Of a stretch of DNA of 43,621 nucleotides, positions 402 to 31,029 are shown in pieces. The DNA is from an uncultured Bacteroidota bacterium (lineage in GTDB: Bacteria; Bacteroidota; Bacteroidia; Bacteroidales; P3). The stretch spans positions 1 to 43,621 of the forward strand of contig CACZUZ010000018.1 of the NCBI GenBank assembly GCA_902784465.1. Reading direction: 5' to 3'. The notes under the pieces are model-generated. The model was given only the letters and a program-made list of their open reading frames with translations, searched no databases and was not told the origin of the DNA. The number at the start of each line of letters is the position of its first letter. Position 1 is the stretch's first letter. The translations under genes and the position numbers were made by a program.

Positions 402-416
402 AATTTATTTTTTTTG

Positions 417-512
417 ATTATCGGATGTACGGATTTTCGGATAATTGGGATATTCGGATATTGGGATGTTCGGATGTTCGGATAATCGGATAGTCAATCA
501 TCCGAAAGTCCC
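417..512. repeat. Octamer array, CGGAT core, between mce and mmdA
   Basis: Tandem degenerate 8-bp units (CGGATGTT, CGGATAAT, CGGATATT) read on the plus strand. Close to the mce stop codon the orientation flips to ATCCGAAA. In the direction of transcription (minus) the order is therefore CGGAT units next to the mce stop, then ATCCG units toward the mmdA start, which permits a fold-back hairpin. Confidence 0.85.
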
Positions 513-515
513 TAT

Positions 516-923
516 TTATTTGCAGCAAAATTCGGTGAGGACACCCAGGGTGCTCTTGGGGTGCAGGAAACCGATATGGAGACCTTCGGCTCCACCACGG
601 GACTGCTGGTCGATGAGACGCACACCCTTATCCTTGGCCTCATTGAGGGCCTGATCGGTGTTATCGACAGCGAAAGCGATGTGGTGCATACCGCCCTTGC
701 CACCGTTCTTCTCGATGAACGAAGCAATGGTGCTTTCAGGACATGTGGGCTCGAGGAGCTCGATTTTCACGTCGCCGATTTTAAAAAAGGCTGTTTTTAC
801 TTTCTGGTCGGTAACTTCCTCAATTGCATAGCATTTGAGTCCAATCACTTCTTCCCAGTACTTGATTGCTTCTTCCAGATTGGTGACAGCAATACCGATG
901 TGTTCGATGTGTGAAGGAGTCAT
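516..923 (-). CDS. mce: Methylmalonyl-CoA epimerase
   Basis: Interconverts (R)- and (S)-methylmalonyl-CoA in the cytoplasm, linking methylmalonyl-CoA mutase to decarboxylation or carboxylation. At 135 residues it has the family's usual length. It is a vicinal-oxygen-chelate fold protein: the N-terminal HIEHIGIAV motif carries the first metal ligand (H8), GGMHHIAFAV the second (H80/H81), and VLTEFC at the C-terminus the glutamate ligand (E131). The ATG at 923 is followed by MTPSHIEHIG, where family members normally begin. It lies upstream of mmdA in the same direction, 114 bp apart, the gap being an octamer array. A -7 promoter element about 106 bp upstream (1029-1037) gives a leader of roughly 100 nt with a hairpin at its 5' end. 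Confidence 0.96.
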   Translation of the reverse strand: MTPSHIEHIGIAVTNLEEAIKYWEEVIGLKCYAIEEVTDQKVKTAFFKIGDVKIELLEPTCPESTIASFIEKNGGKGGMHHIAFAVDNTDQALNEAKDKGVRLIDQQSRGGAEGLHIGFLHPKSTLGVLTEFCCK

Positions 924-978
924 GATTTTCTATAGTATTAATTATTAATTTTAAAAATTTAATAGTAAAACAAACTAT

Positions 979-1019
979 TTTTTTCATACATCACTGTATC
1001 ACAGCGACGTATGAAAAAA
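979..1019. other. Inverted repeat at the 5' end of the mce leader
   Basis: Perfect 11-bp arms (TTTTTTCATAC and GTATGAAAAAA) around a 19-nt loop. With the promoter at 1029-1037 the minus-strand transcript would start just before this hairpin, so it could protect the 5' end. On either strand it could also act as a weak terminator, since a T-run follows. Confidence 0.55.
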
Positions 1020-1028
1020 CAATGCAAA

Positions 1029-1037
1029 GCAAAGATA
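1029..1037 (-). promoter_or_regulatory. Bacteroidota -7 element for mce
   Basis: Minus-strand TATCTTTGC matches the TAnnTTTG consensus of the Bacteroidota primary sigma factor. Predicted start of transcription is about 7 nt downstream, near 1022. Confidence 0.6.
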
Positions 1038-1143
1038 CGACATTTTATTTAATTGACAATTTTTTTTTCAAAAATCAACTAAAAAAACTGTCGGAGAAGT
1101 CGATAGCAGAAAAAACGATGAAGACAAACGGGGACAGGTTCCG

Positions 1144-3024
1144 TCAATACAGACTGTCAACAGTTTTGACTATACTGTCGGCATCGTATCCGCAATGGGA
1201 CATGAGGAGTGGTACCGACCCGTGCTTGACGAAATAGTCCGGAATGCCAAGGCTGACAATTCTGCCGCTGAATTTTCCCTGGAGGGTCTCCATCACGGCA
1301 CTGCCAAAGCCGCCCTGGATGCAGCCATCCTCGACGGTCACGATGTTGTCGTAGCGCGACGCCACTTCGTTCAGCAGTTCAACATCGAGCGGTTTCACAA
1401 ATCTCATGTCGTAGTGCCCCACTCTCCTACCCTTTTCGGCAAACAGAGCAACGGCTTTAGCCGCCTCGTTGCCCACATGACCTATCGTCAGTATAGCCAC
1501 ACTGACGCCCTCGGTAAGGCAGCGTCCTTTGCCCACAGCCAAGGGCTGCATGTCGTTACGCCAGTCGGGATGAACCGACAAGCCTCGCGGATAGCGTATC
1601 ACGAAGGGGCCCATGCCATCCAACTGAGAGGTAAACATCATGTTGCGTAACTCATGCTCGTCCATCGGAGCGCATATCGTAAGGTTCGGTATCGGTCTGA
1701 GTGCCGCCAGGTCGAAGGCACCGTGGTGCGTAGGTCCGTCTTCGCCCACCAGTCCGGCACGGTCGAGACAGAGGACCACAGGCAGTTTCTGCAGCGCCAC
1801 ATCATGTATCACCTGGTCGTAGGCTCTCTGCATGAACGATGAATAGATGTTGCAGAAGGGAGTCATCCCTTGTGCCGCAAGCCCGGCGGCGAATGTGACG
1901 GCATGCTGCTCGGCAATGCCCACATCAAAGGCCCGGTCGGGCATACGCTCCATCATCATATTGAGCGAACATCCAGTAGGCATAGCGGGCGTGATGCCGA
2001 CAATCTTCGGGTTCTTCTCGGCAAGCTCTATTATCGTGTAGCCAAAAACATCCTGGTATTTAAGCGGTTGGTGGCTGGTATCACCTTTCAGTTGCAGGCC
2101 TGTCTCCACATCGTAGCGACCCGGAGCATGGTAGGTTATAGGGTTACGTTCGGCTTCGGCCATACCCTTGCCTTTCGTGGTTACGATATGCAGCAGCTTG
2201 GGGCCGCCGATATTTTTCAGCTGCGAAAGAATCTCCACAAGCCTTGCCACATCGTGACCGTCGACAGGACCGAAATAGCGGAAACCCAGCGACTCGAAGA
2301 GGTTGGCGCTGGCCAACAGCGAGGACTTGAAGGCCGACAGAGTTTTCGATATGAAATTATGCCCCCGCGTAGGGCCGCTGTCGCCACCTGTCTTACGCCA
2401 GACATGCTCCTTGATTTTGTTGTATTTGGGCGAAGCCGTGATGTCGACCAGATAGTTGCTGAGTCCGCCGACAGCCTTATCGATAGAGATACCGTTGTCG
2501 TTGAGAATCACCAACATGTTGGCTTTCGACACACCCGCATTGTTGAGTGCCTCGAAGGCCTCGCCGCCTGTCATGGAGCCGTCGCCAATCACAGCAATAT
2601 GTTGGCGTTGAGTGTTGCCCTGAAGTTTGGAGGCTGTAGCCATACCGAGGGCTGCCGAAATGGAGGTGGAGCTGTGACCAGTGCCGAAGGCGTCATACTC
2701 GCTCTCGTCCATCTTGGGGAAGCCACTGATGCCGCCGTAAGTCCTTATGGTCGGGAAGAGGTCGCGGCGGCCGGTGAGGATTTTGTGTGCGTAGGCCTGA
2801 TGCCCGACATCGAAGATTATCTTGTCGTCGGGAGTATTGAAAACGTAGTGCAGGGCGATGCAGAGTTCCACGGTGCCTAGCGAAGAAGCCAGGTGTCCGG
2901 GATGCGTCGCCAACGTGTCAACAATATATTTTCTCAGTTCGTTTGCCAGCTCCGAAAGGTCGGAAATAGGCAATCGACGAAGGTCTTCTGTAGTATTAAT
3001 ATTTTCTAAAATAACACCTTGCAA
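1144..3024 (-). CDS. dxs: 1-deoxy-D-xylulose-5-phosphate synthase
   Basis: Thiamine-diphosphate enzyme that condenses pyruvate and glyceraldehyde 3-phosphate, the first step of the methylerythritol phosphate isoprenoid pathway. Visible motifs are the N-terminal ATHPGHLASSLGTVEL (catalytic His), the TPP/Mg motif GDGSMTGGEAFEALNNAG, FGPVDGHD, and in the pyrimidine domain DVGIAEQHAVTFAAGLA and RAGLVGEDGPTHHGAFD. No ATG lies in frame near the expected start. A TTG at 3024 gives LQGVILENINTTEDLRRL, which matches where short-form Bacteroidales proteins begin, and 626 residues, the usual length. A -7 element at 3050-3058 puts the RNA start about 20 nt before this TTG, which rules out longer upstream reading. 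No partner gene of the pathway is adjacent. Confidence 0.95.
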   Translation of the reverse strand: MQGVILENINTTEDLRRLPISDLSELANELRKYIVDTLATHPGHLASSLGTVELCIALHYVFNTPDDKIIFDVGHQAYAHKILTGRRDLFPTIRTYGGISGFPKMDESEYDAFGTGHSSTSISAALGMATASKLQGNTQRQHIAVIGDGSMTGGEAFEALNNAGVSKANMLVILNDNGISIDKAVGGLSNYLVDITASPKYNKIKEHVWRKTGGDSGPTRGHNFISKTLSAFKSSLLASANLFESLGFRYFGPVDGHDVARLVEILSQLKNIGGPKLLHIVTTKGKGMAEAERNPITYHAPGRYDVETGLQLKGDTSHQPLKYQDVFGYTIIELAEKNPKIVGITPAMPTGCSLNMMMERMPDRAFDVGIAEQHAVTFAAGLAAQGMTPFCNIYSSFMQRAYDQVIHDVALQKLPVVLCLDRAGLVGEDGPTHHGAFDLAALRPIPNLTICAPMDEHELRNMMFTSQLDGMGPFVIRYPRGLSVHPDWRNDMQPLAVGKGRCLTEGVSVAILTIGHVGNEAAKAVALFAEKGRRVGHYDMRFVKPLDVELLNEVASRYDNIVTVEDGCIQGGFGSAVMETLQGKFSGRIVSLGIPDYFVKHGSVPLLMSHCGYDADSIVKTVDSLY

Positions 3025-3049
3025 AACAATCAAGCTATTGTATGAAACT

Positions 3050-3058
3050 GCAAAGATA
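3050..3058 (-). promoter_or_regulatory. Bacteroidota -7 element for dxs
   Basis: Minus-strand TATCTTTGC, in the gap between the upstream gene's stop and the TTG start of dxs. It implies a short leader of about 20 nt and supports the non-ATG start. Confidence 0.6.
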
Positions 3059-3067
3059 AGAAAAAAT

Positions 3068-4069
3068 TCAATTCTTCGCTTCTCCGTTATGTACTTTGTA
3101 GGCTGGCTGGTCCTTGGGGAGAGGTTCGAACTCCTTGTTGAGCTTTGGGTCCGACAGTCGCCCTTGCGCATTGTCGCGCAGTTCCCACTTGCCATCACGC
3201 AGGATATAAGCCATCTCGGTACCTGTTGGGGCATAGTACTGCGGCAGGCCTTCCATGCCTGGCAACATGGGTGCCACCTCGTCGAACAATATCATCTTCA
3301 TCTTCTCCTCACGCGGCACCTGGGTATTGATGGTGCGTCCTTTCTTCTTGATTTTCTTGTTCTCGTAGGTGCGGACAATCTGTTGGTCGAAGCGAAGGTT
3401 GACCATAGCGTTGCTCGAATACTCAAGCACCAGTCGCCGCAAGTTCTTTTCCCTGCGGAACAATGACTGTCCAAACTGCGGGCGTGAACCACCACGGAAG
3501 AGTATAGGTTCTATGACTTTCCTCTGTACCAGAGCATTGACACCTGTCCAGCCCAGAAGGGTATAGTACATTTTCCCTTCATACTTGGTCTCTATAAGCT
3601 CCTGGTAGACACTGCCGTACCAGTTGTCGGGGTCGAGCACCTGCTCCTGAACCGAAATCATTTCGTCCGACTTGTCGTGAAGTACATAGACATCGTAGTT
3701 CTCGCTCTTGGGGTTGTAGGACTGCACAAAGCCGAAGCACTCGTACTCGCCATTGTCGCGCACCACAGGCCAGGTGATGATGCGGAACTGGCGGTCGCTC
3801 GATGTCAGCACCGACACCGCTGTGCCGAAGTCCCATCTCCATTCAAACGACTCGTCGACATGCAATGCCTCGTCGAAGAGCTGAACGAACTGCTCGTTGG
3901 CATTGTAGCGTTCATTGTCGGTCGGCGCTCCTGTTATCTTCTCTAGAAGGGGCTGCATATTACGCTGATAGGCACTCATCACATCGCGGTTTTGGCCGAA
4001 AGCAGAGGAAAACCGGCAACTGAATAATGTGCTGAGGACAATGACAAGAAGAGGGATTATTTTTTTCAT
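3068..4069 (-). CDS. Secreted or lipid-anchored protein of unknown function
   Basis: 333 residues. The N-terminus is an export signal (two Lys, then a hydrophobic stretch ending LSTLFSC). The Cys at 18 could be a lipoprotein site, or cleavage could occur after SSAFG. The mature part starts with a helical segment, followed by a mixed region rich in aromatic residues (FEWRWDFGTAVSVLTSSD, FRIITWPVV, YNPKSENYDVYVLHDKSDE, WYGSVYQELIETKYEGKMYYTLLGW). I recognise the general look of a conserved Bacteroidota hypothetical protein but no domain with a known activity. It is divergent to dapD with an 88-bp gap and ends just before the dxs promoter, so it seems to be a single-gene unit. Confidence 0.85.
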   Translation of the reverse strand: MKKIIPLLVIVLSTLFSCRFSSAFGQNRDVMSAYQRNMQPLLEKITGAPTDNERYNANEQFVQLFDEALHVDESFEWRWDFGTAVSVLTSSDRQFRIITWPVVRDNGEYECFGFVQSYNPKSENYDVYVLHDKSDEMISVQEQVLDPDNWYGSVYQELIETKYEGKMYYTLLGWTGVNALVQRKVIEPILFRGGSRPQFGQSLFRREKNLRRLVLEYSSNAMVNLRFDQQIVRTYENKKIKKKGRTINTQVPREEKMKMILFDEVAPMLPGMEGLPQYYAPTGTEMAYILRDGKWELRDNAQGRLSDPKLNKEFEPLPKDQPAYKVHNGEAKN

Positions 4070-4157
4070 GAAAAGGATGAGATTTGCAACAATAAAAAGG
4101 ATGTTTCAACGTTTAACATAAAAAAATATAATTTATTGCAATAAACCGAAAAAAAAT

Positions 4158-5426: not shown

Positions 5427-5876
5427 TTATAAGTCGACCGACTCGATTGCGTGATCGTCGGTCACCACAGGCACCTGCTGCTCGGGAGACTGGAACAACC
5501 GTATAATCAACAAAATCAGTATGAATGCCGCCAGGAAAAGCATCAGATAGCCCTTGTTCTGAATGCTTTTCAGAAACGGGCTCACCTTTCTTGGTTCTTC
5601 ACCTTTGGCCAGCACAATATACCTGTGACCATCCTTCTCGATGGTCTCTTCCTTATGTATCTGGAACGGAGCCGAAAGTATGGTTTCTTTTACGGCGGCA
5701 TTGAAATTGCTCTGTGAGACGCCCTCCCCTTTTTCCAACACAGCGAAATAACGCCTCACCACACCATCGCCCGCCTTGCGGCGGGCGTAGGCGCGATAGG
5801 TTTTCCCCAGCTCGTTTTCATCGGCCAGGCCTTCGATATGGTATCGGCGCAAATCGCCTTGAAGAGTATCCAACAA
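5427..5876 (-). CDS. Single-pass membrane protein of unknown function, probable TTG start
   Basis: About 149 residues from TTG at 5876; a GTG at 5924 would give 165 residues, but its extra N-terminus would be a translation of the heptamer repeat (residues NSQFTIHNSQ). A -7 element at 5908-5916 lies inside that extension and places the RNA start near 5900, so the TTG is preferred. The N-terminal domain of about 95 residues is soluble (LQGDLRRYHIEGLADENELG, KAGDGVVRRYFAVLEKGEG). A single strong membrane segment (YLMLFLAAFILILLIIRLF) lies near the C-terminus, followed by a short acidic tail. The protein may be tail-anchored. I recognise no family. An octamer array separates it from alaS upstream. 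Confidence 0.72.
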   Translation of the reverse strand: MLDTLQGDLRRYHIEGLADENELGKTYRAYARRKAGDGVVRRYFAVLEKGEGVSQSNFNAAVKETILSAPFQIHKEETIEKDGHRYIVLAKGEEPRKVSPFLKSIQNKGYLMLFLAAFILILLIIRLFQSPEQQVPVVTDDHAIESVDL

Positions 5877-5907
5877 TTGTGAATTGTGAATTGTGAATTG
5901 TGAATTG
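5876..5907. repeat. Heptamer array (GTGAATT) over the 5' end of the 5427-5876 gene
   Basis: Four to five tandem copies of a 7-bp unit, AATTGTG on plus and CACAATT in the mRNA sense. It would form the leader just before the TTG start. Confidence 0.8.
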
Positions 5908-5916: not shown

Positions 5917-5929
5917 TCTGTCACGGAGG

Positions 5930-6050
5930 TTCGGAGGTTTGGATTTTCGGATAATCGGATTTTCGGATATTCGGATATTTGGATTTTCGGTTATTCGGAT
6001 ATTTGGATTTTCGGATTTTCGGATATTCGGATTTTCGGAGGTTCGGATTA
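5930..6050. repeat. Octamer array, CGGAT core, between alaS and the 5427-5876 gene
   Basis: About 14 units of 8 bp on plus, such as CGGATTTT and CGGATATT with TTGGATTT and CGGAGGTT variants. All units share one orientation; in the sense of the flanking minus-strand genes they read ATCCGAAA. Confidence 0.9.
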
Positions 6051-6053: not shown

Positions 6054-8690
6054 TTACACTTCGGCTGCTGCGACCTTCAGTGCGTTGTCAAGACCTGCAG
6101 CATTCTTGCCGCCAGCTGTGGCGTATGCGGGCTGTCCGCCACCGCCGCCCTGGATTTCCTTGCCGGCAGCACGTATGATGGTTCCTGCATTCTTGCCATC
6201 TGCCACACGGTTCTCGCCCAGACATATCATCAGCTGCGGCTTGTCGGCGACGACGCTACCCAGAACCAGAGCCATGTCGGGGAACTGGCTTCTGAGCTGC
6301 ATCACACCATCTTTCAGCTGCATGATGTCGCAGTCCATACGCTTGACAACCATGGGGTTGTTCTTCAGCTCTTCGGCCAGTGAACGGCAAATTGATACCA
6401 CTCTTTCCTTTTGGAAAGAAGCTATCTGTGAACGCAGTTCAGCAGCCTCGTCCTGAAGACGCTGAATGGCGGCGGAAAGGTCTTTGGGGTTCTTGAGCAG
6501 TCCTTTGGCATCCTCCAGCTGGTCTTGCATCTCGTCGACATAACGCATTGCAGCAGCACCCGTCACAGCCTCGATGCGACGCATACCGGCGGCAATGGCG
6601 CCCTCGCTGACGATGCGGAACGATCCTATATGGCCTGTATTGTCGGTATGGGTACCGCCACAGAACTCAACGCTGTCGCCGAATTTGACCACACGCACAA
6701 ACTCGCCATACTTCTCGCCAAACAGAGCCATGGCACCCAGCTTGCGAGCCTCGTCTATGGGCATCTGCCGATGCTCTTCGAGGGATATGGCGTGCCATAT
6801 ATCGATGTTGACCTGTTTCTCGACCTCACGGATTTCCTCTTTGGTGAGCTTGGCAAAATGCGAGAAGTCGAAACGCAGACGCTGGTCGTCGACGCTGGAA
6901 CCTTTCTGCTCGACATGAGTGCCAAGCACGTTACGCAAAGCCTTATGCAGCAGGTGTGTGGCCGAGTGGTTGCACTGGATGGCGAAACGGCGGCACTTGT
7001 CGACCTCGGCCTTGAAGGTTGCCGTCAAATCGGAGGGCAACTTGGTGACAATATGGACAATGAGGTTGTTTTCCTTCTTGGTGTCGACGATGGGTATCAC
7101 CTCTTCGCCGGCGCCTATAGTGCCCTGGTCGCCAACCTGACCACCGCCCTCGCCATAGAAGGGGGTGCGGTCGAACACCAACTGGTAGAACTCGCGGTCT
7201 TTGGTGCGGACATGGCGATAGCGGAGAATCTTGACCTCGCATGCCAGTTCGTCGTAGCCCACAAACTGCTCCTCGGCATCAGGCACCAGCTCCACCCAGT
7301 CGTCGCTCTCGGTCTTGGCGGCGGCACGCGAGCGGTCTTTCTGCTCGGCAAGGCCCTTGGCAAAACCATCCATGTCGACAGTCCATCCCTTCTCGGCAGC
7401 CATGAGTTGCGTGAGGTCGATGGGGAAACCGTAGGTGTCGAAAAGCTCGAAGGCAAAAGCACCGTCGATGACCTTGTCAACCTTCACCTTCTGCTCGCAA
7501 GCCTCGCAGGTAGTCTCACATTCAAGAGCCTTGGCGATATAGTCCTCGAAGCGTTTGATGCCGCCGGTGAGGGTCTTGAGGAAGGCCTGTTCCTCCTCGA
7601 GGATGATGCGGGTTATAAGGTCCTGCTGTTTCTTTAGCTCAGGGAAATGGTCGCCCATCTGGGACACAAGGGTGGGAACCAACCTATTGAGGAACGGTTC
7701 TTTAAATCCAAGGAAAGTGTATCCATATCGGACAGCACGGCGCAAGATGCGACGTATCACGTAGCCAGCCTTTGCATTGGATGGCAGCTGACCGTCGGCT
7801 ATGGAGAAGGAGACGGCACGCAGGTGGTCGGCACATACGCGCATGGCTATGTCGGCCTCCTCGTCCTGGCCGTACACCAGTCCTGCCTTCTTGGCAATGT
7901 CCTGAAGGAGAGGCTGGAAGACATCGGTATCGTAGTTCGACTTCTTGCCCTGCATCACCATGCAAAGACGCTCGAAACCCATTCCGGTGTCTATATGTTT
8001 AGCTTTCAGTGGCTCGAGAGTACCGTTAGCCAAGCGGTTATACTGCATGAAGACAAGGTTCCAAATCTCGATGACCAGGGGGTTGTCCTTGTTCACAAGC
8101 TCCTTGCCAGGCACCTTGGCTTTTTCCGCATCGTCGCGGAGGTCGATGTGGATTTCGCTGCAAGGTCCGCAAGGACCCTGGTCGCCCATCTCCCAGAAGT
8201 TGTCTTTCTTCGACCCCTTCAGTATTCTATCCTCATCGATATGCTCTTTCCAAAAATCGTAGGCTTCGGTGTCCATGGCAAGGCCCTCCTTCTCGTCGCC
8301 ACCAAAAACGGTGACATAGAGGTTCTTCTTGTCAATCTTCATCACCTCGGTGAGGAACTCCCAGCCGAATGCGATAGCTTCTTTTTTGAAGTAGTCGCCA
8401 AACGACCAGTTGCCGAGCATCTCGAACATCGTGTGGTGGTAGGTATCATGCCCCACCTCTTCGAGGTCGTTGTGCTTGCCACTGACACGCAGACACTTCT
8501 GCGAGTCGCAGACACGTGAATATTGGGCTGGACTGTTGCCAAGGAAGATGTCCTTGAACTGGTTCATGCCTGCATTGGTGAACATAAGGGTAGGGTCGTT
8601 TTTGACCACCATGGGAGCTGAAGGGACCACGTGGTGTCCCTTGCTCTGAAAATAATTTAAAAACTGTGAGCGTATTTCGTTTGAAGTCAT
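6054..8690 (-). CDS. alaS: Alanyl-tRNA synthetase
   Basis: Charges tRNA-Ala and edits mischarged Ser/Gly. 878 residues, full length. The class II catalytic core is at the N-terminus (FLNYFQSKGHHVVPSAPMV, PTLMFTNAGMNQFKDIFLG, EVGHDTYHHTMFEMLGNWSF). The editing domain has the zinc ligands HSATH at about residue 574 and CGGTHTDNTGHIG at about 674. The C-terminal DHHA1 domain ends with a Gly-rich loop (GGGGGQPAYATAGG). A small Cys pair region, CETTCEACEQK at about 390, is an insertion I would not expect in every homologue. Both flanks are octamer arrays, so alaS is bounded by repeats on each side. Confidence 0.98.
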   Translation of the reverse strand: MTSNEIRSQFLNYFQSKGHHVVPSAPMVVKNDPTLMFTNAGMNQFKDIFLGNSPAQYSRVCDSQKCLRVSGKHNDLEEVGHDTYHHTMFEMLGNWSFGDYFKKEAIAFGWEFLTEVMKIDKKNLYVTVFGGDEKEGLAMDTEAYDFWKEHIDEDRILKGSKKDNFWEMGDQGPCGPCSEIHIDLRDDAEKAKVPGKELVNKDNPLVIEIWNLVFMQYNRLANGTLEPLKAKHIDTGMGFERLCMVMQGKKSNYDTDVFQPLLQDIAKKAGLVYGQDEEADIAMRVCADHLRAVSFSIADGQLPSNAKAGYVIRRILRRAVRYGYTFLGFKEPFLNRLVPTLVSQMGDHFPELKKQQDLITRIILEEEQAFLKTLTGGIKRFEDYIAKALECETTCEACEQKVKVDKVIDGAFAFELFDTYGFPIDLTQLMAAEKGWTVDMDGFAKGLAEQKDRSRAAAKTESDDWVELVPDAEEQFVGYDELACEVKILRYRHVRTKDREFYQLVFDRTPFYGEGGGQVGDQGTIGAGEEVIPIVDTKKENNLIVHIVTKLPSDLTATFKAEVDKCRRFAIQCNHSATHLLHKALRNVLGTHVEQKGSSVDDQRLRFDFSHFAKLTKEEIREVEKQVNIDIWHAISLEEHRQMPIDEARKLGAMALFGEKYGEFVRVVKFGDSVEFCGGTHTDNTGHIGSFRIVSEGAIAAGMRRIEAVTGAAAMRYVDEMQDQLEDAKGLLKNPKDLSAAIQRLQDEAAELRSQIASFQKERVVSICRSLAEELKNNPMVVKRMDCDIMQLKDGVMQLRSQFPDMALVLGSVVADKPQLMICLGENRVADGKNAGTIIRAAGKEIQGGGGGQPAYATAGGKNAAGLDNALKVAAAEV

Positions 8691-8692: not shown

Positions 8693-8792
8693 TCTGGATT
8701 TTCGGATTTTTGGATTTTCAGATTTTCGGAGTTTTGGATTTTCGGAGTTTTGGATATCCGTCAATCCGAATATCCTATCATCCGAAAATCCC
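8693..8792. repeat. Two-part octamer array between the GroES-family gene and alaS
   Basis: On plus, 8693-8757 reads in the GGATTTTC orientation and 8758-8792 in the reverse complement (ATCCGAAT, ATCCGAAA), up to the stop codon of the GroES-family gene. In the transcript from that gene to alaS this gives CGGAT units followed by ATCCG units, and the outer parts can pair as a long imperfect hairpin (GGATTTTCGGA with TCCGAAAATCC). Confidence 0.88.
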
Positions 8793-8795
8793 TAT

Positions 8796-9152
8796 CTAAA
8801 ACTCGTCGCGTTCGACGAGGAGGATGGCACTTTGAGGGACAATGTAGTATTTCTCGCCGTTGTACTTTATCTCGACGGCACTCTTCTGCATGAAGAGAGC
8901 AAGGTCGCCTGGCTTGACCTGCAATGGCAAATACTTGGGTTCCTTGTCCTTGGGGTTCCAGGGCTCGTCGCTTTCCATACTGGGCAACGCATACCCCGGT
9001 CCACATTTGAGTATGTAGCCCGACTGGATATCCTCTTTTTCCTGATAGCCGGCAGGAAGATAAAGGCCACTTTTTGTGCGTTGCGATGCAGTCCCCTGCT
9101 GAATAAGCACGCGGTCGCCAATAACGATGAGCTTGTCAAGAGCGTTGTGCAT
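8796..9152 (-). CDS. GroES-family co-chaperonin-like protein
   Basis: 118 residues with a Cpn10-like sequence: LDKLIVIGDRVLIQQG at the start corresponds to the first beta strand, then a mobile-loop region with TKSGLYLPAG, then LPLQVKPGDLALFMQKSAVE and IKYNGEKYYIVPQSAILLV as the C-terminal strands. It is longer than canonical GroES (about 95 residues) because of an inserted segment around YALPSMESDEPWNPKDKEPK. No groEL is adjacent. It is therefore probably a second, accessory GroES-like copy of the kind found in many Bacteroidota, not the operon copy. An octamer array lies in its leader and another follows its stop codon. Confidence 0.85.
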   Translation of the reverse strand: MHNALDKLIVIGDRVLIQQGTASQRTKSGLYLPAGYQEKEDIQSGYILKCGPGYALPSMESDEPWNPKDKEPKYLPLQVKPGDLALFMQKSAVEIKYNGEKYYIVPQSAILLVERDEF

Positions 9153-9240
9153 AGTTGGATTTTTGGATTTTCGGATGATCGGATTTTCGGATGATCGGAT
9201 TTTCGGATGATCGGATTTTCGGATGATCGGATGGTTGGAT
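9152..9240. repeat. Octamer array with 16-bp higher-order unit, GroES-family leader
   Basis: On plus the array alternates CGGATTTT and CGGATGAT, giving a 16-bp unit repeated four times almost without change. It lies between the -7 element at 9300-9308 and the start codon at 9152, so it would be transcribed as 5' leader in the ATCCGAAA sense. Confidence 0.9.
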
Positions 9241-9412: not shown

Positions 9413-9455
9413 TCACAATTTACAATTCACTATTCACAATTCACAATTCACATTT
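9413..9455. repeat. Heptamer array (ACAATTC) before the YfhO-family start codon
   Basis: Tandem variants of ACAATTC, ACTATTC and ACATTTC, period 7 with one 8-bp slip. In mRNA sense it is the same word as the leader repeat of the 5427-5876 gene. Confidence 0.75.
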
Positions 9456-9459
9456 CGCC

Positions 9460-18308: not shown

Positions 18309-18476
18309 ATGTGTGGATTTTCGGAGATTTGGATTTTCGGATTTTCGGAGATTTGGATTTTCGGATTTTCGGAGATTTGGATTTTTGGATTATTGGATAT
18401 TTGGATTTTCGAACATCCATTCATCCGTTTTTCCATTCATCGTTTATCCATTCATCCGTTTATCCATTCATCCGAG
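18309..18476. repeat. Two-part octamer array between IspD/TarI-type and TagD-type genes
   Basis: Plus strand 18309-18412 has GGATTTTC units with a 24-bp higher-order unit repeated three times; 18413-18476 has the reverse orientation (ATCCATTC, ATCCGTTT). The stop codon of the upstream cytidylyltransferase (18468-18470) lies inside the last unit. The first half is open in the frame of the downstream gene and would encode an 8-residue repeat. Confidence 0.9.
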
Positions 18477-19170: not shown

Positions 19171-19216
19171 TAATTAGGAGTTAGGAATTAGGAATGAGGA
19201 GTTGGGAATTGGGAAG
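19171..19216. repeat. Heptamer array (AGGAATT type)
   Basis: Six or so units such as AGGAGTT, AGGAATT, AGGAATG and GGGAATT directly upstream of the IspD/TarI-type start codon, period 7. Confidence 0.75.
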
Positions 19217-19252
19217 AGAGAGTGATAGGAGCAGCACATTTTACATTCTACA

Positions 19253-19796: not shown

Positions 19797-19836
19797 TTGG
19801 ATTTGATTGAAATTTGAATTTTGAATTTTGAATTGA
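19797..19836. repeat. Heptamer array (TTTGAAT)
   Basis: Three clean tandem copies and flanking variants between two divergent promoters (19769-19777 minus and 19864-19872 plus). Confidence 0.7.
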
Positions 19837-20684: not shown

Positions 20685-20725
20685 GAAAAGGTTATAATGC
20701 GCGAGAACGCATTATAACCTTTTTC
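20685..20725. terminator. Bidirectional intrinsic terminator between convergent genes
   Basis: Perfect 16-17 bp stem (GAAAAGGTTATAATGCG paired with its complement) around CGAGAA, with A- and T-runs at the ends. It separates the lipoprotein gene (+) from the aminotransferase gene (-). Confidence 0.9.
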
Positions 20726-20739: not shown

Positions 20740-20789
20740 AAGCCGGATTTTCGGATTATCGGATTATCGGATTTCCGGATTATCGGATT
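20740..20789. repeat. Octamer array, CGGAT core, at the 3' end of the aminotransferase gene
   Basis: Six units (CGGATTTT, CGGATTAT, CGGATTTC) on plus between the terminator and the aminotransferase stop codon. Confidence 0.85.
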
Positions 20790-22106
20790 TTACTTCACGG
20801 GGTGGTCGGCGTGGAATTTCTCCAGACGCTCCTTGAGGTCGGGGAACTGGTCACGCTGGACGAGGGCGACGCAGGCGCGGATGCCTTGCTTGAGGCTGCC
20901 GGTGATGTCGAGGGCGATGGCGCTGATGCCGTAGCGGATAAGCTCGTTGAGAAGCTCGACGCCTTTGTAGCCAGGATAGCAGAAGGTGAAATAGAAGCCG
21001 TCGCCGATGTCCTCGCCCATATCCTTGTCGTAAACGATATAGAAGCCGTTGTCGGTGAACAACTTCTTCATGATGCCGGCCTTCTCGCCATACTCCTTGA
21101 TATCCTTGACGAAGTTGAAAGTGCCGTCGTTGGCACCTTTGAGCATGGCAGCCATTGCATACTGCACGCTGTGGGCTGTGCCGCTGGAGAGGCAGTAGAG
21201 TGTGCCGAAGATGAGGGCGCGGCCGAGCTGGGTCTGGCTGTAGAAACGCGACAGGTCGGGGCATTCCATATTGAACAGCTTGGGTGAGCAGACCATCATG
21301 GCAATACGCTCGCCGGCATAGCTGAACGACTTGGAGCCGGAAATCATGATGACATAGAGGTCGGTGTACTTGGCAACCGTGGGCTGGAAGGGTGCCTTGC
21401 CAGGGACGCTGTAGTCCTTGCGGAAGTCCATGAGGAAATAGGCAGAGTCTTCCATCACGACGACGCCATATTTTTGGGACATCTCACCGATAATCTTGAG
21501 CTCATGCTCGGTGAAGCAGAACCATGCGGGATTGTTGGGGCTGCTGAAAATCATGCATGCCACATCACCGTCCTTCAGTTCCTCTTCGAGCTTGTCGCGC
21601 AGCTTGTCGCCACGGTACTCGTAGACGTCGAAGGCTTTCATCGGAATGCCCAGAACACGGCACTGCTGTTTCTGCACAGGGAAGCCAGGGTCGATGAAGA
21701 GCACCTTGGTTTTCTTGGCATCGTAGCGGGTCAGCGTCAGGAAGCTGGCGAAGCCGGCCTGCATCGAGCCGACGGTAGGCACGCAGCAATCGGGGGTGAC
21801 GTCGATGTCGAGGAAGTTTTTCACGAAACGAGCGGCCTCGCGTTTGAAGTCGGCAGTACCGTAGATTTCGGGATAGATGCTTGCGACACCGCTCTTGAGG
21901 GCCTCAATCTGGGCGTTGACACCCACCTGGGGAGCAGGCAAACCAGGGATACCCATCTCCATCTTGACGAAGCGGACACCTGTCTCTTTTTCAACGTCCT
22001 GAATCATTTTGCGCATCTCGCGGATGCTGGCCTTTCCGGGATTCTTTATCTTGTTTTCGGCGGCAATCTTGTCGATTACCTCTTTTTGGATTGGTATTTG
22101 AGTCAT
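20790..22106 (-). CDS. PLP-dependent aminotransferase, class I/II
   Basis: 438 residues, fold type I aminotransferase. Residue runs supporting this: VKMEMGIPGLPAPQVGVNAQ (N-terminal substrate loop), TVGSMQAGFASFLTLTRYD (cofactor phosphate side), IFSSPNNPAWFCFTEHEL (Asn of the NPxN-like motif), GVVVMEDSAYFLMDF (Asp and Tyr contacts) and MISGSKSFSYAGERIAMM, where the Lys is the Schiff-base residue. The C-terminal domain ends with FPDLKERLEKFHAD. An N-terminal helical extension (IDKIAAENKIKNPGKASIRE) is present. Neighbours do not suggest a pathway, so the amino donor and acceptor are not predicted. Confidence 0.93.
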   Translation of the reverse strand: MTQIPIQKEVIDKIAAENKIKNPGKASIREMRKMIQDVEKETGVRFVKMEMGIPGLPAPQVGVNAQIEALKSGVASIYPEIYGTADFKREAARFVKNFLDIDVTPDCCVPTVGSMQAGFASFLTLTRYDAKKTKVLFIDPGFPVQKQQCRVLGIPMKAFDVYEYRGDKLRDKLEEELKDGDVACMIFSSPNNPAWFCFTEHELKIIGEMSQKYGVVVMEDSAYFLMDFRKDYSVPGKAPFQPTVAKYTDLYVIMISGSKSFSYAGERIAMMVCSPKLFNMECPDLSRFYSQTQLGRALIFGTLYCLSSGTAHSVQYAMAAMLKGANDGTFNFVKDIKEYGEKAGIMKKLFTDNGFYIVYDKDMGEDIGDGFYFTFCYPGYKGVELLNELIRYGISAIALDITGSLKQGIRACVALVQRDQFPDLKERLEKFHADHPVK

Positions 22107-22117
22107 GATATTATTGT

Positions 22118-22242
22118 TTGAATGTTTGATTGCTTGAGTGTTTGATTGCTTGAGTGTTTGAGTGCTTGAGTGTTTGAGTGCTTGAGTGTTTGAGTGTTTG
22201 ATGCGTCAGCCACTCAAACATTCAAACATTTACACATTCAAG
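22118..22242. repeat. Two-part octamer array, TTGAGTG core, between DUF4835 and aminotransferase genes
   Basis: On plus, 22118-22203 alternates TTGAGTGT, TTGATTGC and TTGAGTGC (8-bp period, 16-bp higher order). After a pivot (TGCGTCAGC) 22211-22242 has the reverse complement (CACTCAAA, CATTCAAA). In the transcript the order is TTGAATG units after the DUF4835 stop, then CACTCAA units toward the next ATG. A 10-bp perfect pairing flanks the pivot. Confidence 0.92.
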
Positions 22243-22245
22243 CAT

Positions 22246-23217: not shown

Positions 23218-23330
23218 TATGGATTTTCGGATTGATGGATTGACGGATTTTCGGAGGGGACGGATTGACGGATTTTCGGAGGGACGGATTTTCGGAGGGA
23301 CGGATGGGACGGATTTTCGGATTGGGGGAT
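23218..23330. repeat. Octamer array, CGGAT core, between the divergent DUF4835 and gyrB promoters
   Basis: Units CGGATTTT, CGGATTGA and CGGAGGGA, with 8-bp period and a few slips. It lies upstream of both promoters, so it is probably not transcribed from either. Confidence 0.85.
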
Positions 23331-25404: not shown

Positions 25405-25510
25405 GAATTATCGGAATAACGAAATAACGTTATAACGTCATAACGACTTTTCGAAATAACGTTATAACGAAATAACGAAATAACGACAAAACGTCATAAC
25501 GACAAAACAA
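25405..25510. repeat. Octamer array, ATAACG core, between gyrB and pepE
   Basis: Units AAATAACG, TTATAACG, TCATAACG and ACAAAACG in strict 8-bp period with one interruption (ACTTTTCG). The word differs from the CGGAT arrays but the period is the same. It begins 5 bp after the gyrB stop codon. Confidence 0.9.
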
Positions 25511-25536: not shown

Positions 25537-26286
25537 ATGGATAAAAGAAACCTTCTTCTCATCAGCAACAGCACCATGCGCGGCGAGGCATACCTCGGCT
25601 GGTGCAAAGAGATGATTGCCGACTTCTGCAATCGTCATAACGTAAAGAGAGTGCTGTTCGTCCCCTACGCAGGCGTCTCCCTCGCCCAAGGCGGACTCAC
25701 CAAGAGCTATGACGCCTACGAGGCCAAAGTGGCAGCCGTCTACAAAGAGTTCGGCGTGAAGCTCACCTCTGTCCATCACAAGGCGTTGCCCATCAATGCC
25801 GTATACGACACCGACTGTGTGGCTGTGGGCGGTGGCAACACTTTCCACCTCGTTCGCGAGCTGCAGCGTACCGGCCTTATGCAGGCCATCCGCCAGCGTG
25901 CCTTCGACGGCATGCCCTACATGGGATGGAGCGCCGGCAGCAACGTGGCGGGTCCCACCCTCTGCACCACCAACGACATGCCCATCGTCATGCCCGCCTC
26001 GTTCGACTGCATGGGTCTGGTGCCATTCCAGATCAACCCCCACTACACCGACTTCTTCGACCCGAAGCATGGTGGCGAGACACGCGACGACCGTCTGAAA
26101 GAGTATATCATGGTCAACCCCAAGGCTACCGTCGCCGCCATCCGCGAGGCCACTGCCCTCCTTCTCGAAAACGGCAAACTCTCCCTCATCGGCAAGCCCA
26201 ACAAGATGAAAGTCTTCAAGACCAATATCGAAAACACCCAGGAACTCCACCTCGATGCCGACCTCAATTTCCTGCTGAAAGCGTAA
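25537..26286 (+). CDS. pepE: Dipeptidase E (alpha-aspartyl dipeptidase), peptidase family S51
   Basis: Cytoplasmic serine dipeptidase that cleaves Asp-Xaa dipeptides. 249 residues, close to the family's 230-250. The nucleophile elbow is MGWSAGSNVAGP with Ser132; the family's triad partners correspond to Asp147 (TTNDMPI) and His169 (FQINPHYTDFF). VAVGGGNTFHLVRELQ is the typical glycine-rich loop. It lies 137 bp after gyrB, the gap filled by an octamer array, and is followed by another array and a strong terminator, so it may be co-transcribed with gyrB; no separate promoter is visible. Confidence 0.95.
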   Translation: MDKRNLLLISNSTMRGEAYLGWCKEMIADFCNRHNVKRVLFVPYAGVSLAQGGLTKSYDAYEAKVAAVYKEFGVKLTSVHHKALPINAVYDTDCVAVGGGNTFHLVRELQRTGLMQAIRQRAFDGMPYMGWSAGSNVAGPTLCTTNDMPIVMPASFDCMGLVPFQINPHYTDFFDPKHGGETRDDRLKEYIMVNPKATVAAIREATALLLENGKLSLIGKPNKMKVFKTNIENTQELHLDADLNFLLKA

Positions 26287-26385
26287 CGGATGTCCAGATA
26301 ATCGGATGTCCGGATAATCGGATGTTCGGATAATCGGATGTTCGGATGTTCGGATAATCGGATGTTCGGATAATCGAATGTGCAG
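26286..26385. repeat. Octamer array, CGGATAAT/CGGATGTT, after pepE
   Basis: About 12 units, alternating CGGATGTC/CGGATGTT and CGGATAAT, starting at the pepE stop codon and followed by a terminator. Only one orientation is present; no co-directional gene follows in the same transcript. Confidence 0.9.
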
Positions 26386-26608: not shown

Positions 26609-26672
26609 AAAATTGTTTTCAGACTTTTGAGCCATGCAAATTGCATAACGGCTCTGGCGTTGCCGTGGAATA

Positions 26673-26706
26673 ATATTCACAATTCCTAATTCCTAATCTC
26701 TAATTG
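26673..26706. repeat. Heptamer array (AATTCCT) in the exopolysaccharide leader
   Basis: Tandem AATTCAC, AATTCCT, AATTCCT, AATCTCT, AATTGAG units, period 7, in the 5' leader of the cassette. Confidence 0.7.
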
Positions 26707-26742
26707 AGAAACAACTGGTATATAGCCGAGTGCAAGCCAACT

Positions 26743-26832
26743 ATGAAGATGGAAATGGGCGAAAACAACTATGTCTTCACCGAGATTTCCATCCAGGATG
26801 TAAAGCCATTAGACACCCCACAACAAACATAA
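26743..26832 (+). CDS. Candidate small leader peptide or gene remnant
   Basis: A 29-residue frame from ATG (KMEMGENNYVFTEISIQDVK in the middle), ending 23 bp before the start of the sugar-transferase gene. The frame stays open upstream to a TTG at 26704 and there reads RNNWYIAECKPT, which resembles the first strand of NusG-type proteins. Bacteroidales capsule operons often begin with a NusG-like antiterminator gene, so this could be the rest of a deleted one, or a leader peptide. The similarity is short and could be chance. Confidence 0.25.
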   Translation: MKMEMGENNYVFTEISIQDVKPLDTPQQT

Positions 26833-26855
26833 ATATCATCAATTGTAGAAGTACA

Positions 26856-28250: not shown

Positions 28251-28326
28251 AAAGGTACAGAATGAAATCACCATGGATGACCTATTTGGTAATGATTTAA
28301 ACAATTTGCAAAATAATATACAATAA
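28234..28326 (+). CDS. Candidate 30-residue small protein between sugar transferase and Wzc-type gene
   Basis: ATG at 28234 overlaps the last 17 bp of the sugar-transferase gene and the frame ends 18 bp before the next ATG. It begins MKRRIEKVQNEITMDDLFGN, basic then acidic, and ends Asn/Gln-rich. Translational coupling to both neighbours would be possible. No family is recognised and it may be chance. Confidence 0.3.
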   Translation: MKRRIEKVQNEITMDDLFGNDLNNLQNNIQ

Positions 28327-28344
28327 TAATCTAAAAACAGTTTC

Positions 28345-30903
28345 ATGTCCGACAACGTAAAAATCGATTTAGAAGACCTTGACGACTTGAAAAGTCTTCT
28401 GGGTGAAGAAACTAAAAGTACTAGGATTAGCTTCCAGAAGGTGTTTTCTCATCTGGTACTCAACTGGTACTGGTACCTTATCTCTCTGGTCATCTGCCTG
28501 TGTGCAGCCTGCTTCTATCTGAATTTGGTACCTCCCACCTACCAGGTGACGGCAAGAATGCTCGTCAAGGACGAGGACAAGAAAATGAACAGCCCCGTGA
28601 AGCAGTTCCTGCCCAACATGGAAGACTTCGGCATCATGAACAATTCCAGCGGCTTCGACAACGAGGTGGAAATTCTGGCATCGCCGGTAACCATCCATGA
28701 CGCCGTTAAACGACTGAAACTCTATACGGAATATCGGTTCGGCGGTCACATCAGGAAAAGACTTGTATACACCTACCAGCCTGTCAGCGTAGAACTCGAC
28801 CCCCTGTCGCTCGACTCCCTGGACTACTATATGCTGGATGGCATTTTTTCTATAACTGCGACGATAACAAGAAAAGAAAATAACGGAGAGGGCTATCATG
28901 CCGACGTGATGCTGCTCGCCAACGGGAAAATCAAGAAGTCATACAGTCATGACTTCAAGTCCCTCCCGTCATCTATAGCAACCGAATTCGGCACCATCTC
29001 ATTCGTGAACAACCCCAAATACAGACCAAACAATAAAGATCCTTTCCACAAAGGTGACGCTCTCATTGCCACCATCCGCCCACCCATGATTGTCGCGCTC
29101 GACTATATGCGCAGGCTCAGCGTGGAACCCACATCGAATAAGACCTCCATCGCCGCCATCGTCCTCAAAGACGAGAGCCACAGACGCGGTATCGACTTCA
29201 TCAACGCCCTCGTGCTATGCTACAACGACCAGGCCAATATTGACAAGAACGATATTGCAATGAAAACAGAGGAGTTTATCAACCAACGACTTGAGAAGAT
29301 CGACGCCGAGCTTGGAACGACCGAAAACTCCCTTGAGAACTACAAACGCCGCAACTCCGTCACTCAACTGGAGGCCGACGCGGCTCAGTCGCTGCAAATG
29401 TCGGCTCAGTATGCCTCTCGCCTGGCCGATGCCAACACCCAGCTGCAGCTGCTCGAATATCTGCAAGAATTTATCGAGAATCCCGACAACCGCTATAAAC
29501 TGATACCTGCCAATATCGGAATGAACGACCTCGCATCCACCCAGTTGATTAACGACTACAACAAAGTGGTTCAGGAACGCAACCGCCTGATGCGTAGCGC
29601 CAGCGAACAATCGCCACAGGTGCAGGCGGTTACCGCCACAATCGACAACCTTGAGGCTTCCATCAGGCAGTCGCTCGCTCAGGCCCGCCATTCCACCGAA
29701 CTGCAGCGCAACTCCATCAAGAATCAGTATGACCGGTATCAGGGACGCATAGGCAACACACCGGAGCAAGAGCGTGTCCTCACCCAGATTGGCCGCCAGC
29801 AGGAAGTGCGCTCCGGCATCTATCTTCTCCTCCTCCAGAAACGCGAAGAGAACAGCATCTCTCTCGCTGCTACAGCCGACAAAGGCAAACTCATCGCCAC
29901 ACCTCTGAGCAACGGACAAGTTGGACCCAAGAAGAAAACAATTCTTCTGTTGGCATTATTGCTGGGCCTGTTCATTCCCTTTGCCATCCTGTATGTGATT
30001 CAGCTGCTGCGCTACCGCATCGAGGGCCGCGAGGATGTCGCTGCACTCACCAAAGTCCCCATCGTGGCCGATGTGCCGGTGGCTAATGAAAGCGCGAAAG
30101 ATGCCGCCGGCATTGTGGTTCAGGCGGACAAGAACAACATGATTGACGAAGTGTTCCGCTCGCTCCGCGCCAATATCCAGTTCCTCATCAAGAATGATGA
30201 AAAGATCATTCTCCTCACTTCGGGCACCTCCGGCGAAGGCAAGACCTTCCTCGCCTCCAACATCGCTGTGTCGTTTGCACTGCTCGGCAAGAGGGTTGCC
30301 CTGGTGGGATGCGACATCCGCAAGCCAGCCCTCGGAAAACTATTTGGCACTTCAAACCGCAAACATGGCCTCACCAACCTCCTCAGACTGGAAAAGGTTA
30401 CAAAAGAGGATTTGCACAACGAGACAGTCCCGTCCGGAATCAACCCTTGCCTCGACCTCCTCTTGTCGGGTCCCATCCCCCCAAATCCTACCGAGCTGTT
30501 GAGCAGGTCTAACTTCAAGACAGTGCTCGACCTGCTGAGCGACGAGTACGACTACATCATCCTCGACTCTGCTCCCGTGGGATTGGTCACCGACACTATA
30601 CAGCTGGCTCGCTATGCCAATGTGAACTGTTTCGTCTGCCGTGCCGACTACACGCCCAAGTCAACCCTCTCACTGCTCAACTCGCTGACCAAAGAAGACA
30701 AACTCCCCAATGCCTGCATCGTTCTCAATGGTGTGGACATGTCGAAGAAGAAGAATGGCTATTACTATGGCTACGGCCGCTACGGCAGGTATGGCCGCTA
30801 CGGCTACGGCAAGAACGGCTATGGATACAGCTACTATGGCAGCTACGGCAATTACGCCGAGTCCCATTACGGCGACAAAGATGATGATAGCATAAAGAAA
30901 TAA
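28345..30903 (+). CDS. Wzc-type polysaccharide co-polymerase with tyrosine autokinase domain
   Basis: 852 residues. The N-terminal Wzz domain is bounded by two membrane helices: about residues 40-60 (YLISLVICLCAACFYLNLV) and 531-552 (ILLLALLLGLFIPFAILYV). The periplasmic part has long helices around residues 310-480 (QRLEKIDAELGTTENSLENY, RQSLAQARHSTELQRN). The cytosolic BY-kinase has Walker A TSGTSGEGKTFLASNIA near 625, Walker A' LVGCDIRKPALGKLFG near 652 and Walker B YDYIILDSAPVGLVTD near 735. The C-terminus from about 804 is a tyrosine cluster with YGRYGRYGRYGYG, the autophosphorylation site region. It controls chain length and export together with the Wza-type protein downstream. Confidence 0.95.
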   Translation: MSDNVKIDLEDLDDLKSLLGEETKSTRISFQKVFSHLVLNWYWYLISLVICLCAACFYLNLVPPTYQVTARMLVKDEDKKMNSPVKQFLPNMEDFGIMNNSSGFDNEVEILASPVTIHDAVKRLKLYTEYRFGGHIRKRLVYTYQPVSVELDPLSLDSLDYYMLDGIFSITATITRKENNGEGYHADVMLLANGKIKKSYSHDFKSLPSSIATEFGTISFVNNPKYRPNNKDPFHKGDALIATIRPPMIVALDYMRRLSVEPTSNKTSIAAIVLKDESHRRGIDFINALVLCYNDQANIDKNDIAMKTEEFINQRLEKIDAELGTTENSLENYKRRNSVTQLEADAAQSLQMSAQYASRLADANTQLQLLEYLQEFIENPDNRYKLIPANIGMNDLASTQLINDYNKVVQERNRLMRSASEQSPQVQAVTATIDNLEASIRQSLAQARHSTELQRNSIKNQYDRYQGRIGNTPEQERVLTQIGRQQEVRSGIYLLLLQKREENSISLAATADKGKLIATPLSNGQVGPKKKTILLLALLLGLFIPFAILYVIQLLRYRIEGREDVAALTKVPIVADVPVANESAKDAAGIVVQADKNNMIDEVFRSLRANIQFLIKNDEKIILLTSGTSGEGKTFLASNIAVSFALLGKRVALVGCDIRKPALGKLFGTSNRKHGLTNLLRLEKVTKEDLHNETVPSGINPCLDLLLSGPIPPNPTELLSRSNFKTVLDLLSDEYDYIILDSAPVGLVTDTIQLARYANVNCFVCRADYTPKSTLSLLNSLTKEDKLPNACIVLNGVDMSKKKNGYYYGYGRYGRYGRYGYGKNGYGYSYYGSYGNYAESHYGDKDDDSIKK

Positions 30904-31026
30904 GTGAATTCGTTAATTCGTTAATTCGTTAATTCGAAAATCCATTTATCCGAACATCCAACCATCCGAACATCCAATCATCCGAACATCCAACCATCCG
31001 AACATCCAATCATCCGAAAATCCAAA
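30904..31026. repeat. Two-part octamer array between Wzc-type and Wza-type genes
   Basis: Starts with TTAATTCG units (four copies) after the Wzc-type stop codon, then ATCCGAAC/ATCCAACC/ATCCAATC units. The latter form a 32-bp higher-order unit repeated twice. In the transcript the second part has the ATCCG orientation toward the next start codon, as in the other two-part arrays. Confidence 0.9.
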
Positions 31027-31029
31027 ACA

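Follow-up and report, generated by a model that had tools for sequence, protein, structure and literature searches.

Gene-less hairpins that are dispersed through a genome by a protein acting in trans are known from miniature inverted-repeat transposable elements (MITEs) and from repetitive extragenic palindromes with their RAYT proteins (REP-RAYT systems). Bacterial spacers may also hold short tandem repeats, and the short-tandem heptamers of cyanobacteria are termed short tandemly repeated repetitive (STRR) sequences. Such heptamers are described in Beggiatoaceae (TAACTGA) and in Xanthomonas and Nostoc (PMC4679880 and PMC4692102); those of Calothrix are mentioned, and the Xanthomonas word GGGAATC forms 70-75 convergent inverted pairs (PMC4692102). 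The hairpins of intervening sequences (IVSs) in 23S rRNA are reported to be excised by RNase III. In such an IVS, terminal inverted repeats form a hairpin whose loop holds an S23p open reading frame (ORF); in Coxiella this ORF is preceded by tandem heptamers, and the function and origin of IVSs are called unclear (PMC4990558). Here we examine a 43,621-nucleotide stretch of DNA (hereafter the window), in which the spacers between genes are nearly filled by eleven arrays of 8-bp units, and relate these arrays to genes of the S23p family (PF05635, the 23S-rRNA-intervening-sequence family). We conclude that the arrays probably derive from a mobile hairpin element, of which they would be the arms, mainly as gene-less remnants or as non-autonomous copies. 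In its complete form this element comprises a short-tandem array (usually G-rich), an S23p gene of ~120 aa and an inverted array, and lies in sense between the genes of an operon; on our best reading it would be to mRNA what the S23p intervening sequences are to 23S rRNA.

The window corresponds to contig C18 in the draft genome of an uncultured, Prevotella-like bacterium, designated G000, an assembly of 2.53 Mb in 88 contigs that is 84% complete; congener genomes compared with it are designated Gnnn, and DNA stretches or loci read are designated Lnnn. Seven loci matched the Wzz-like protein of the window, six of them in Prevotellaceae, the nearest at 73% identity.

The S23p gene and its inverted arms

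PF05635 is matched in 117 of 119 genomes of the genus, with 1-18 matches in each, and S23p is an Avd-like four-helix bundle of ~120 aa. The solved structures found by sequence search are 2gsc, which is XCC0516 of Xanthomonas campestris, and 2rld, two further weak matches being designed proteins. The family is said to resemble the Avd protein of diversity-generating retroelements (DGRs) in sequence and structure (PMC10053308). Unlike in DGRs, S23p alone lies between the arms in the elements read here, no reverse-transcriptase search having been made.

For the arm test, each locus was turned to gene sense and the 150 bp upstream were compared with the complement of the 150 bp downstream, against 200 shuffles. 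Of 65 loci (L209-L273), 58 were kept; dropped were L242-L244 (below the Pfam cut-off), L241 (no tblastn match) and L227, L258 and L264 (short or masked flanks). Inverted arms beating all 200 shuffles were found at 24 of 29 testable loci of the genus, drawn from the best PF05635 matches of 30 congeners, at both testable loci of G000 itself and at 17 of 27 loci at the level of the order. When 200-bp flanks and 100 shuffles were used, inverted arms were present at 51 of the 56 S23p genes of the genus that are intact and distinct; this non-random set combines best matches, genes from hand-picked multi-copy genomes and a few found via their arrays, all with usable flanks. An extra set of 31 rows, a few of which are one gene fetched twice, contains 30 with arms and one (L306) without. 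As controls, inverted arms were found at four of 97 small genes of G000 and at one of 28 parE loci, namely that of G021, which adjoins an S23p element.

The period of the arms is variable. Near the 51 S23p genes with arms, the best period is 7 in 15 cases, 8 in nine, 11 in seven, 10 in six, 6 in three, 9 in two and 12-15 in six, and three have none. At 15 of the 51 loci the arms share an inner motif, which reads GACAA on the upstream side and TTGTC on the downstream side, the arm words differing among them. A separate observation is that one stretch (L298, G070:C7:1-20000) carries seven S23p genes within ~11 kb, at ~6-17 kb, with several arm words, and may be a hot spot or a nest.

The element is also oriented. 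Among the 56 genes, S23p between co-directional genes lies on the same strand as its neighbours in 48 cases and on the opposite strand in none, some of the 48 being inherited copies of one insertion; in seven of the remaining eight, a neighbour was not called on at least one side (one of these seven has a convergent gene on its other side), and in the last the left neighbour is divergent. Since blind insertion into DNA would yield both strands, either only sense copies survive, S23p needing its neighbours' promoter, or insertion would occur at the level of the transcript.

Some copies outside the order have inverted arms as well. S23p matches occur in 19 plasmid records, from Nostoc, other cyanobacteria, Riemerella, Azospirillum and others, and 12 were read for arms; at five of the 11 cyanobacterial loci inverted arms beat all 200 shuffles, and L282 stands at 1/200. 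The S23p match of Azospirillum lipoferum 4B is located within a 23S rRNA gene (Rfam LSU, model 466-2062) and, by eye, between heptamer arms; it is the one copy among the relatives read for which a 23S rRNA location is shown. Thus, the known rRNA IVS seems to be built alike, as arm, S23p and arm, with heptamers in Coxiella (PMC4990558) and, by eye, in Azospirillum. Unlike the IVS, the elements described here lie between protein-coding genes, their arms are arrays, and gene-less copies occur by the dozen with a species-specific word. Two side observations concern the plasmid copies: in L276, S23p lies between direct AAAAGCT/AAAAGCC heptamer arrays (~690-800 and 1163-1270), and in L280, L276 and L282, S23p lies between CRISPR genes, namely cas6|cas4 in Anabaena sp. 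90 and Pseudanabaena galeata and cas10|cmr3 in Picosynechococcus PCC 7003.

Pairing of S23p type with arm word

Across the 51 genes, S23p identity is correlated with arm similarity (Spearman 0.386, reached in 0 of 500 permutations). Flanks are common to 16 of the 30 most similar pairs, which reflects one old insertion inherited by two species; when only non-orthologous pairs (1168) are considered, the correlation is 0.338 (0 of 1000 permutations). For example, the G000 gene at L239 has two relatives in G070 that are 82 and 88% identical and have similar arms at unrelated sites.

One arm word, GTTNAT, is also more abundant in genomes that carry an S23p gene with this word. Among 28 S23p loci in 24 genomes, all relatives of one S23p protein, nine genomes have a GTTNAT-armed S23p; they contain a median of 42 GTTNAT matches, compared with 1 in 88 others (p=1.3e-5), G000 being excluded from both groups. 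The excess persists without the three genomes that led to the element (p=7.9e-4). These p values are uncorrected for relatedness, the element's own arms add a few matches, and one inherited insertion is common to G011, G021 and G079 at least. Because the arms of one S23p gene in G038 mix GTTGAT and GTGGAT units, the GGAT words of the window may be variants of the GTTNAT-type family. In addition, the word of the window heptamer array at 5875-5907 is the arm word of S23p in G070 and G079 (GTGAATT).

G000 itself has six PF05635 matches, three of them above the cut-off. The arms of L239 have AACGAA/AACGAT words and those of L240 GTTTTAC words, and at the third gene (contig C58, L241/L297) inspection by eye shows no more than a short heptamer-like stretch, located 3' of it. 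No S23p was matched in the window (tblastn with 56 S23p proteins, E 0.01), and a candidate S23p between the arrays around 8796-9152 was ruled out, as the gene there is Cpn10-like.

One may argue that the arms belong to another mobilising system, for which S23p is a frequent passenger or stabiliser. We know of no catalytic site in S23p, and the gene enclosed by heptamer arrays in X. ruminicola D31d looks by eye like a HAD hydrolase, with no S23p found in that stretch. We nevertheless regard this explanation as improbable, given that the word changes together with the S23p subfamily at non-orthologous sites and that S23p is the gene between the arms from Bacteroidales to cyanobacteria.

Words across the genus

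The CGGAT word of the window is found almost only in its own species. Four exact units of GGATNNNN have 278 matches in G000 and at most four in each of 98 congeners, seven of which have any, and four exact units of CGGATNNN, the CGGAT word, have 74 matches in G000 and one in the other 119 congeners. By comparison, GTTNATNN is found in 59 of 98 genomes including G000, with up to 84 matches (backward control in three), the 10-mer GGGAGTGANN in 12 of 98, and TTTCGATG arrays are present in G005. Backward-read control patterns also match a few genomes, with up to 26 matches (G034, G087 and G000 in the GTTNATNN search; also G011, G038, G046, G056, G061, G068 and G093 in the GGATNNNN search), which points to further octamer words. 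These counts indicate that one word spreads within one genome and that words turn over between species; the dispersed intergenic word that is strain-specific in STRR sequences is here specific at the level of the species.

It is in this light that plain microsatellite growth has to be weighed, in which chance seeds in neutral spacers are extended by replication slippage with a favoured step of 7-9 nt and nothing is mobile. The higher-order units of 16, 24 and 32 bp look slippage-like, periods 7, 8 and 9 are all in excess, and PMC4679880 cites a proposal according to which the polymerase contacts a stretch of 7 nt. However, one word at dozens of loci in one genome, and at a single place in 119 congeners, requires a process of copying or dispersal and not local growth of seeds only. 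The inverted arms and the association with S23p likewise speak against slippage alone, as does an orthologous spacer of 9 bp in one relative that is 139 bp in the window, so that microsatellite growth appears unlikely as the full account. The initial annotation had proposed that a single generative process works on different seed words. The recurrence of one architecture in the genus with species-specific words agrees with this proposal, whereas the variable period, the inverted arms and the dispersal of one word within one genome do not.

Empty, filled and gene-less sites

Comparison of orthologous spacers reveals arrays that are present in one species and absent in another. The order aminotransferase, DUF4835, gyrB/parE-type gene (parE) and peptidase S51 is kept in nine of ten relatives' stretches (the tenth stops before the aminotransferase), and five of the ten have extra DNA between DUF4835 and parE. 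The DUF4835-aminotransferase spacer measures 9 bp and is array-free in G033, 20 bp in G028, 24 bp in G030, 33 bp in G034 and 67-103 bp in G016, G031, G014 and G021, whereas it reaches 139 bp in the window, where it contains a TTGAGTG hairpin, and 193 bp in G005, where it contains TCGA-words; spacer ends are approximate in several rows, where protein matches stop short of the stop codon. The parE-peptidase spacer is 137 bp long in the window, where it contains ATAACG words; its length is 21 bp in G028 and G030, 45 bp in G031, 58 bp in G033, 84 bp with 9-mers in G014 and 114 bp in G005. It measures 436 bp in G034, 746 bp in G021 and 664 bp in G011, where a small gene lies between (GTTGATAN)n and (ATATCAAC)n words; this gene is S23p, and the G034 copy carries a stop. 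In G016 the same spacer is 1770 bp and holds other genes; as a side observation, this 1.77-kb insertion (L163) by eye resembles a restriction-modification pair, with a DPPY motif that suggests an adenine methylase. Thus, array presence and absence at orthologous sites, a trait of MITEs, is found between species for two window spacers.

The same trait is found for S23p elements between related plasmids. Within a Nostoc plasmid cluster A|B|C, L290 and L293 are empty at either junction. At A|B, L283 and L291 carry S23p and L292 a broken copy of it; at B|C, L274 is filled, whereas in L290 the stop codon of one gene overlaps the start codon of the next. The junction of TraM and the next gene is empty in L288, holds S23p between GGGAACA arms in L275 and L289, and in L287 shows GGGAACT/AGTTCCC words but no annotated S23p. 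Likewise, the cas10-cmr3 junction is empty in PCC 7002 and filled in PCC 7003. These states mean that gene-less arms can stand where relatives carry the full element, and we infer that the window arrays are such gene-less members and that the window's own words belong with the element.

The GGGAACA-type words are S23p arms in Nostoc edaphicum, and the elements share with STRR sequences short tandem words in spacers that are strain-specific and of unknown origin. They differ in that the window unit is mostly 8 bp, none of the eleven arrays having a 7-bp unit, and in that they are tied to S23p and inverted arms. The dispersed intergenic heptamers of Xanthomonas (GGGAATC) and Beggiatoaceae (TAACTGA) are similar, and the term S23 does not occur in the available texts of PMC4679880 and PMC4692102. 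As in MITE and REP-RAYT systems, gene-less hairpins would be dispersed by a protein acting in trans; unlike them, the arms are tandem arrays with a changing word, and no transposase was seen between the arms, a transposase with such ends not having been searched for.

Octamer arrays of the window and its genome

All eleven spacers that the initial annotation had listed hold 8-bp arrays (Table 1). A scan of the window for all periods of 3-40 (64-bp windows, at least 66% self-match) detected nine places at period 8 and further ones at 16, 24, 32 and 40, one at period 25, which is the slipping array 23218-23330, one at period 30, at 40212 in a coding region, and nothing at periods 3-7, 9-15 and 17-23. 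Separately, coding tandem repeats of 48, 30, 24 and 18 bp were seen at 40101-40308, within the ORF 39312-40403. CRISPR arrays, which have identical repeats and unique spacers, were considered and rejected, as the window arrays are head-to-tail degenerate 8-mers.

The excess of period 8 extends beyond the window. In a sample of 843.6 kb (the window and 40 stretches, about a third of the genome; 48-bp windows, 70% self-match), 43 arrays have period 8, of which 38 are intergenic by 540 simple gene calls made for this analysis. Period 7 follows with 24 arrays (16 intergenic), period 9 with 15 (13) and period 6 with seven (1), and periods 5, 10, 11 and 13 have 0-1 each. The claim of a period constant at 8 is too strict in view of the heptamer arrays in the window itself and of periods 7 and 9 in the genome; the statement that arrays lie only between genes is qualified by five of the 43 that, by these gene calls, do not. 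By word family, the 43 arrays comprise 23 CGGATNNN, eight ATAACGNN, six GTTAATNN, five TTGAGTGN-like and one other.

Several arrays are inverted, a G-rich array being followed by its complement. An inverted repeat with a score of at least 24 and above 20 shuffles is present in 18 of the 43, at least two of them not made of array words, and some of the 18 rows share one repeat, so that true arm pairs are fewer. The G-richer arm comes first in 14 of the 18, the C-richer in two, and two are equal. The window arrays differ from the IVS in lying between protein-coding genes and in having no S23p ORF in a loop.

Arrays often stretch from stop codon to start codon, with a median coverage of 83% in 26 co-directional array-bearing spacers of 40-400 bp, and 28 of 31 array-bearing spacers (40-600 bp) are co-directional. 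Such placement would be expected if the arrays were a selected RNA or DNA signal kept for gene control, for instance Rho-loading sites, terminators or sites of word-specific regulators, and a sense-strand excess of C with YC every 8 nt would suit Rho, whose sequence preference is for an excess of C and for YC. However, 201 of all 263 spacers are co-directional anyway, and of 36 co-directional arrays, 23 have more C than G on the sense strand and 13 more G than C (two-sided sign test ~0.13), which is not convincing for a Rho-loading or terminator function. Moreover, some orthologous spacers of relatives have no array and the words are species-specific, and we consider a selected signal to have little chance of being the explanation.

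With a draft genome of 88 contigs, an assembly artefact of the metagenome bin might be suspected. Yet such arrays were seen in numerous independent genomes as well as on complete plasmids, and because X. ruminicola D31d has heptamer arrays in the spacer orthologous to window 30904-31026, the arrays are real; an artefact is hardly credible.

A mobile hairpin element as the probable source

Avd binds nucleic acid, and S23p, if Avd-like, would be a ring-shaped nucleic-acid binder that holds the arm word. By acting in trans on gene-less hairpins as well, S23p would disperse one word through one genome. A single hairpin strand, gene-less hairpins included, would be copied to a new intercistronic place; as a guess, movement may proceed through a single-stranded intermediate, perhaps of RNA, with the help of a polymerase or reverse transcriptase of the host. 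The arm units would multiply, and the arms grow or shrink, by slippage, which would explain the 16-, 24- and 32-bp higher orders. The window arrays would then be gene-less copies and half-decayed arms.

Several observations weigh against a mobile S23p hairpin element as the source of the window arrays. The inverted-arm test fails at 10 of 27 S23p copies at the level of the order, at five of the 56 genes of the genus and at five of the 11 cyanobacterial copies (L276, with direct arrays, L277, L281, L283 and L284). By the criterion used, 25 of the 43 octamer arrays of G000 have no inverted arm, and two of the 18 inverted repeats (window 20736; L155 658) are by eye terminator-like palindromes beside an array. 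No CGGAT-armed S23p was found among the three above-cut-off matches of the 84%-complete G000, and G054 has 69 GTTNAT matches without a GTTNAT-armed S23p among the loci looked at. Furthermore, no catalytic gene was seen in the element, and at the Nostoc A|B junction the target-like GATTCT found on both sides also resembles an arm word, leaving a target-site duplication unproven. On balance, we still hold a mobile S23p hairpin element to be the probable source.

Features of the window

Table 1. Tandem arrays of the window and the genes that border them
Position	Feature	Strand	Setting
417..512	CGGATNNN octamer array; short inverted end (ATCCG) at ~500-510	.	minus-strand gene start 401; glyoxalase-like gene stop 516 (516-923, -)
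5875..5907	heptamer array (AATTGTG), then GACAAATG	.	
5930..6050	CGGATNNN array, 24-bp higher order	.	fills spacer; alanyl-tRNA synthetase gene stop 6054; start 5924 of predicted gene without Pfam match
8693..8796	GGATTTTC array, then inverted arm (ATCC words)	.	alanyl-tRNA synthetase gene (6054-8690, -) and Cpn10-family gene (8796-9152, -)
9152..9240	GGATTTTC/GGATGATC array, 16-bp higher order	.	5' of Cpn10-family gene, divergent spacer
9413..9456	heptamer array (TCACAAT), the word of 5875-5907 in the other orientation	.	
18309..18476	GGATTTTC array, 24-bp higher order, then ATCC-word array in the other orientation	.	cytidylyltransferase-like gene and ispD-like gene
19172-19223 and 19807-19834	further heptamer arrays		
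20740..20789	CGGATTAT array	.	3' side of aminotransferase gene (20790-22106, -)
22115..22245	TTGAGTGN array and inverted arm CACTCAAA, adjoining GCGTCAGC	.	fills DUF4835-aminotransferase spacer
23218..23330	CGGATTGA/CGGAGGGA array, one-base slips	.	divergent spacer upstream of gyrB/parE-type gene
25405..25510	ATAACGNN array	.	gyrB/parE-type gene to peptidase-S51 gene
26286..26385	CGGATGTT/CGGATAAT array	.	downstream of peptidase-S51 gene
30904..31026	GTTAATTC array joined to ATCCGAAC/ATCCAATC array	.	Wzz-like gene to polysaccharide-export gene

Two further features lie beside arrays. A perfect inverted repeat at 20686-20725 (AAAAGGTTATAATGCG / CGCATTATAACCTTTT), between convergent genes and next to an octamer array, is likely a two-way terminator. 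The pair GCGTCAGC / GCTGACGC recurs near differing arm words at window 22203-22210, at L148 7079-7195, and in L212 and L216.

Implications

The initial annotation knew of no described element of this kind. Its statement holds for the link of intergenic short-tandem arrays to S23p genes, for which no description was found in the open-licence literature (on Prevotella octamers, nothing useful was found there); it does not hold for the parts, since the heptamers of Beggiatoaceae, Xanthomonas and Nostoc and the S23p IVS of rRNA are described. On our reading, what is new is that relatives of rRNA intervening sequences would live between cistrons, with the spacer repeats as their remains.

A broader and more tentative proposal, which we regard as a possibility rather than the expected outcome, is that S23p genes and repeat hairpins form one very widespread RNA-borne selfish class that enters both intercistronic gaps and the tips of rRNA hairpins, each S23p type recognising its own word of 6-11 nt and mobilising gene-less hairpins in trans. 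One such class, if true, would explain the intergenic heptamers and octamers of Prevotella, of cyanobacteria and perhaps of Xanthomonas and Beggiatoaceae. It would join two old puzzles, the role of the S23p protein of rRNA IVSs and the origin of short tandem repeats in bacterial spacers. If S23p recognises an arm word and moves hairpins, both puzzles could be tested together with a protein of ~120 residues and ~100 bp of DNA, and many genes now labelled "four helix bundle protein", like many intergenic repeats, would have to be annotated differently.

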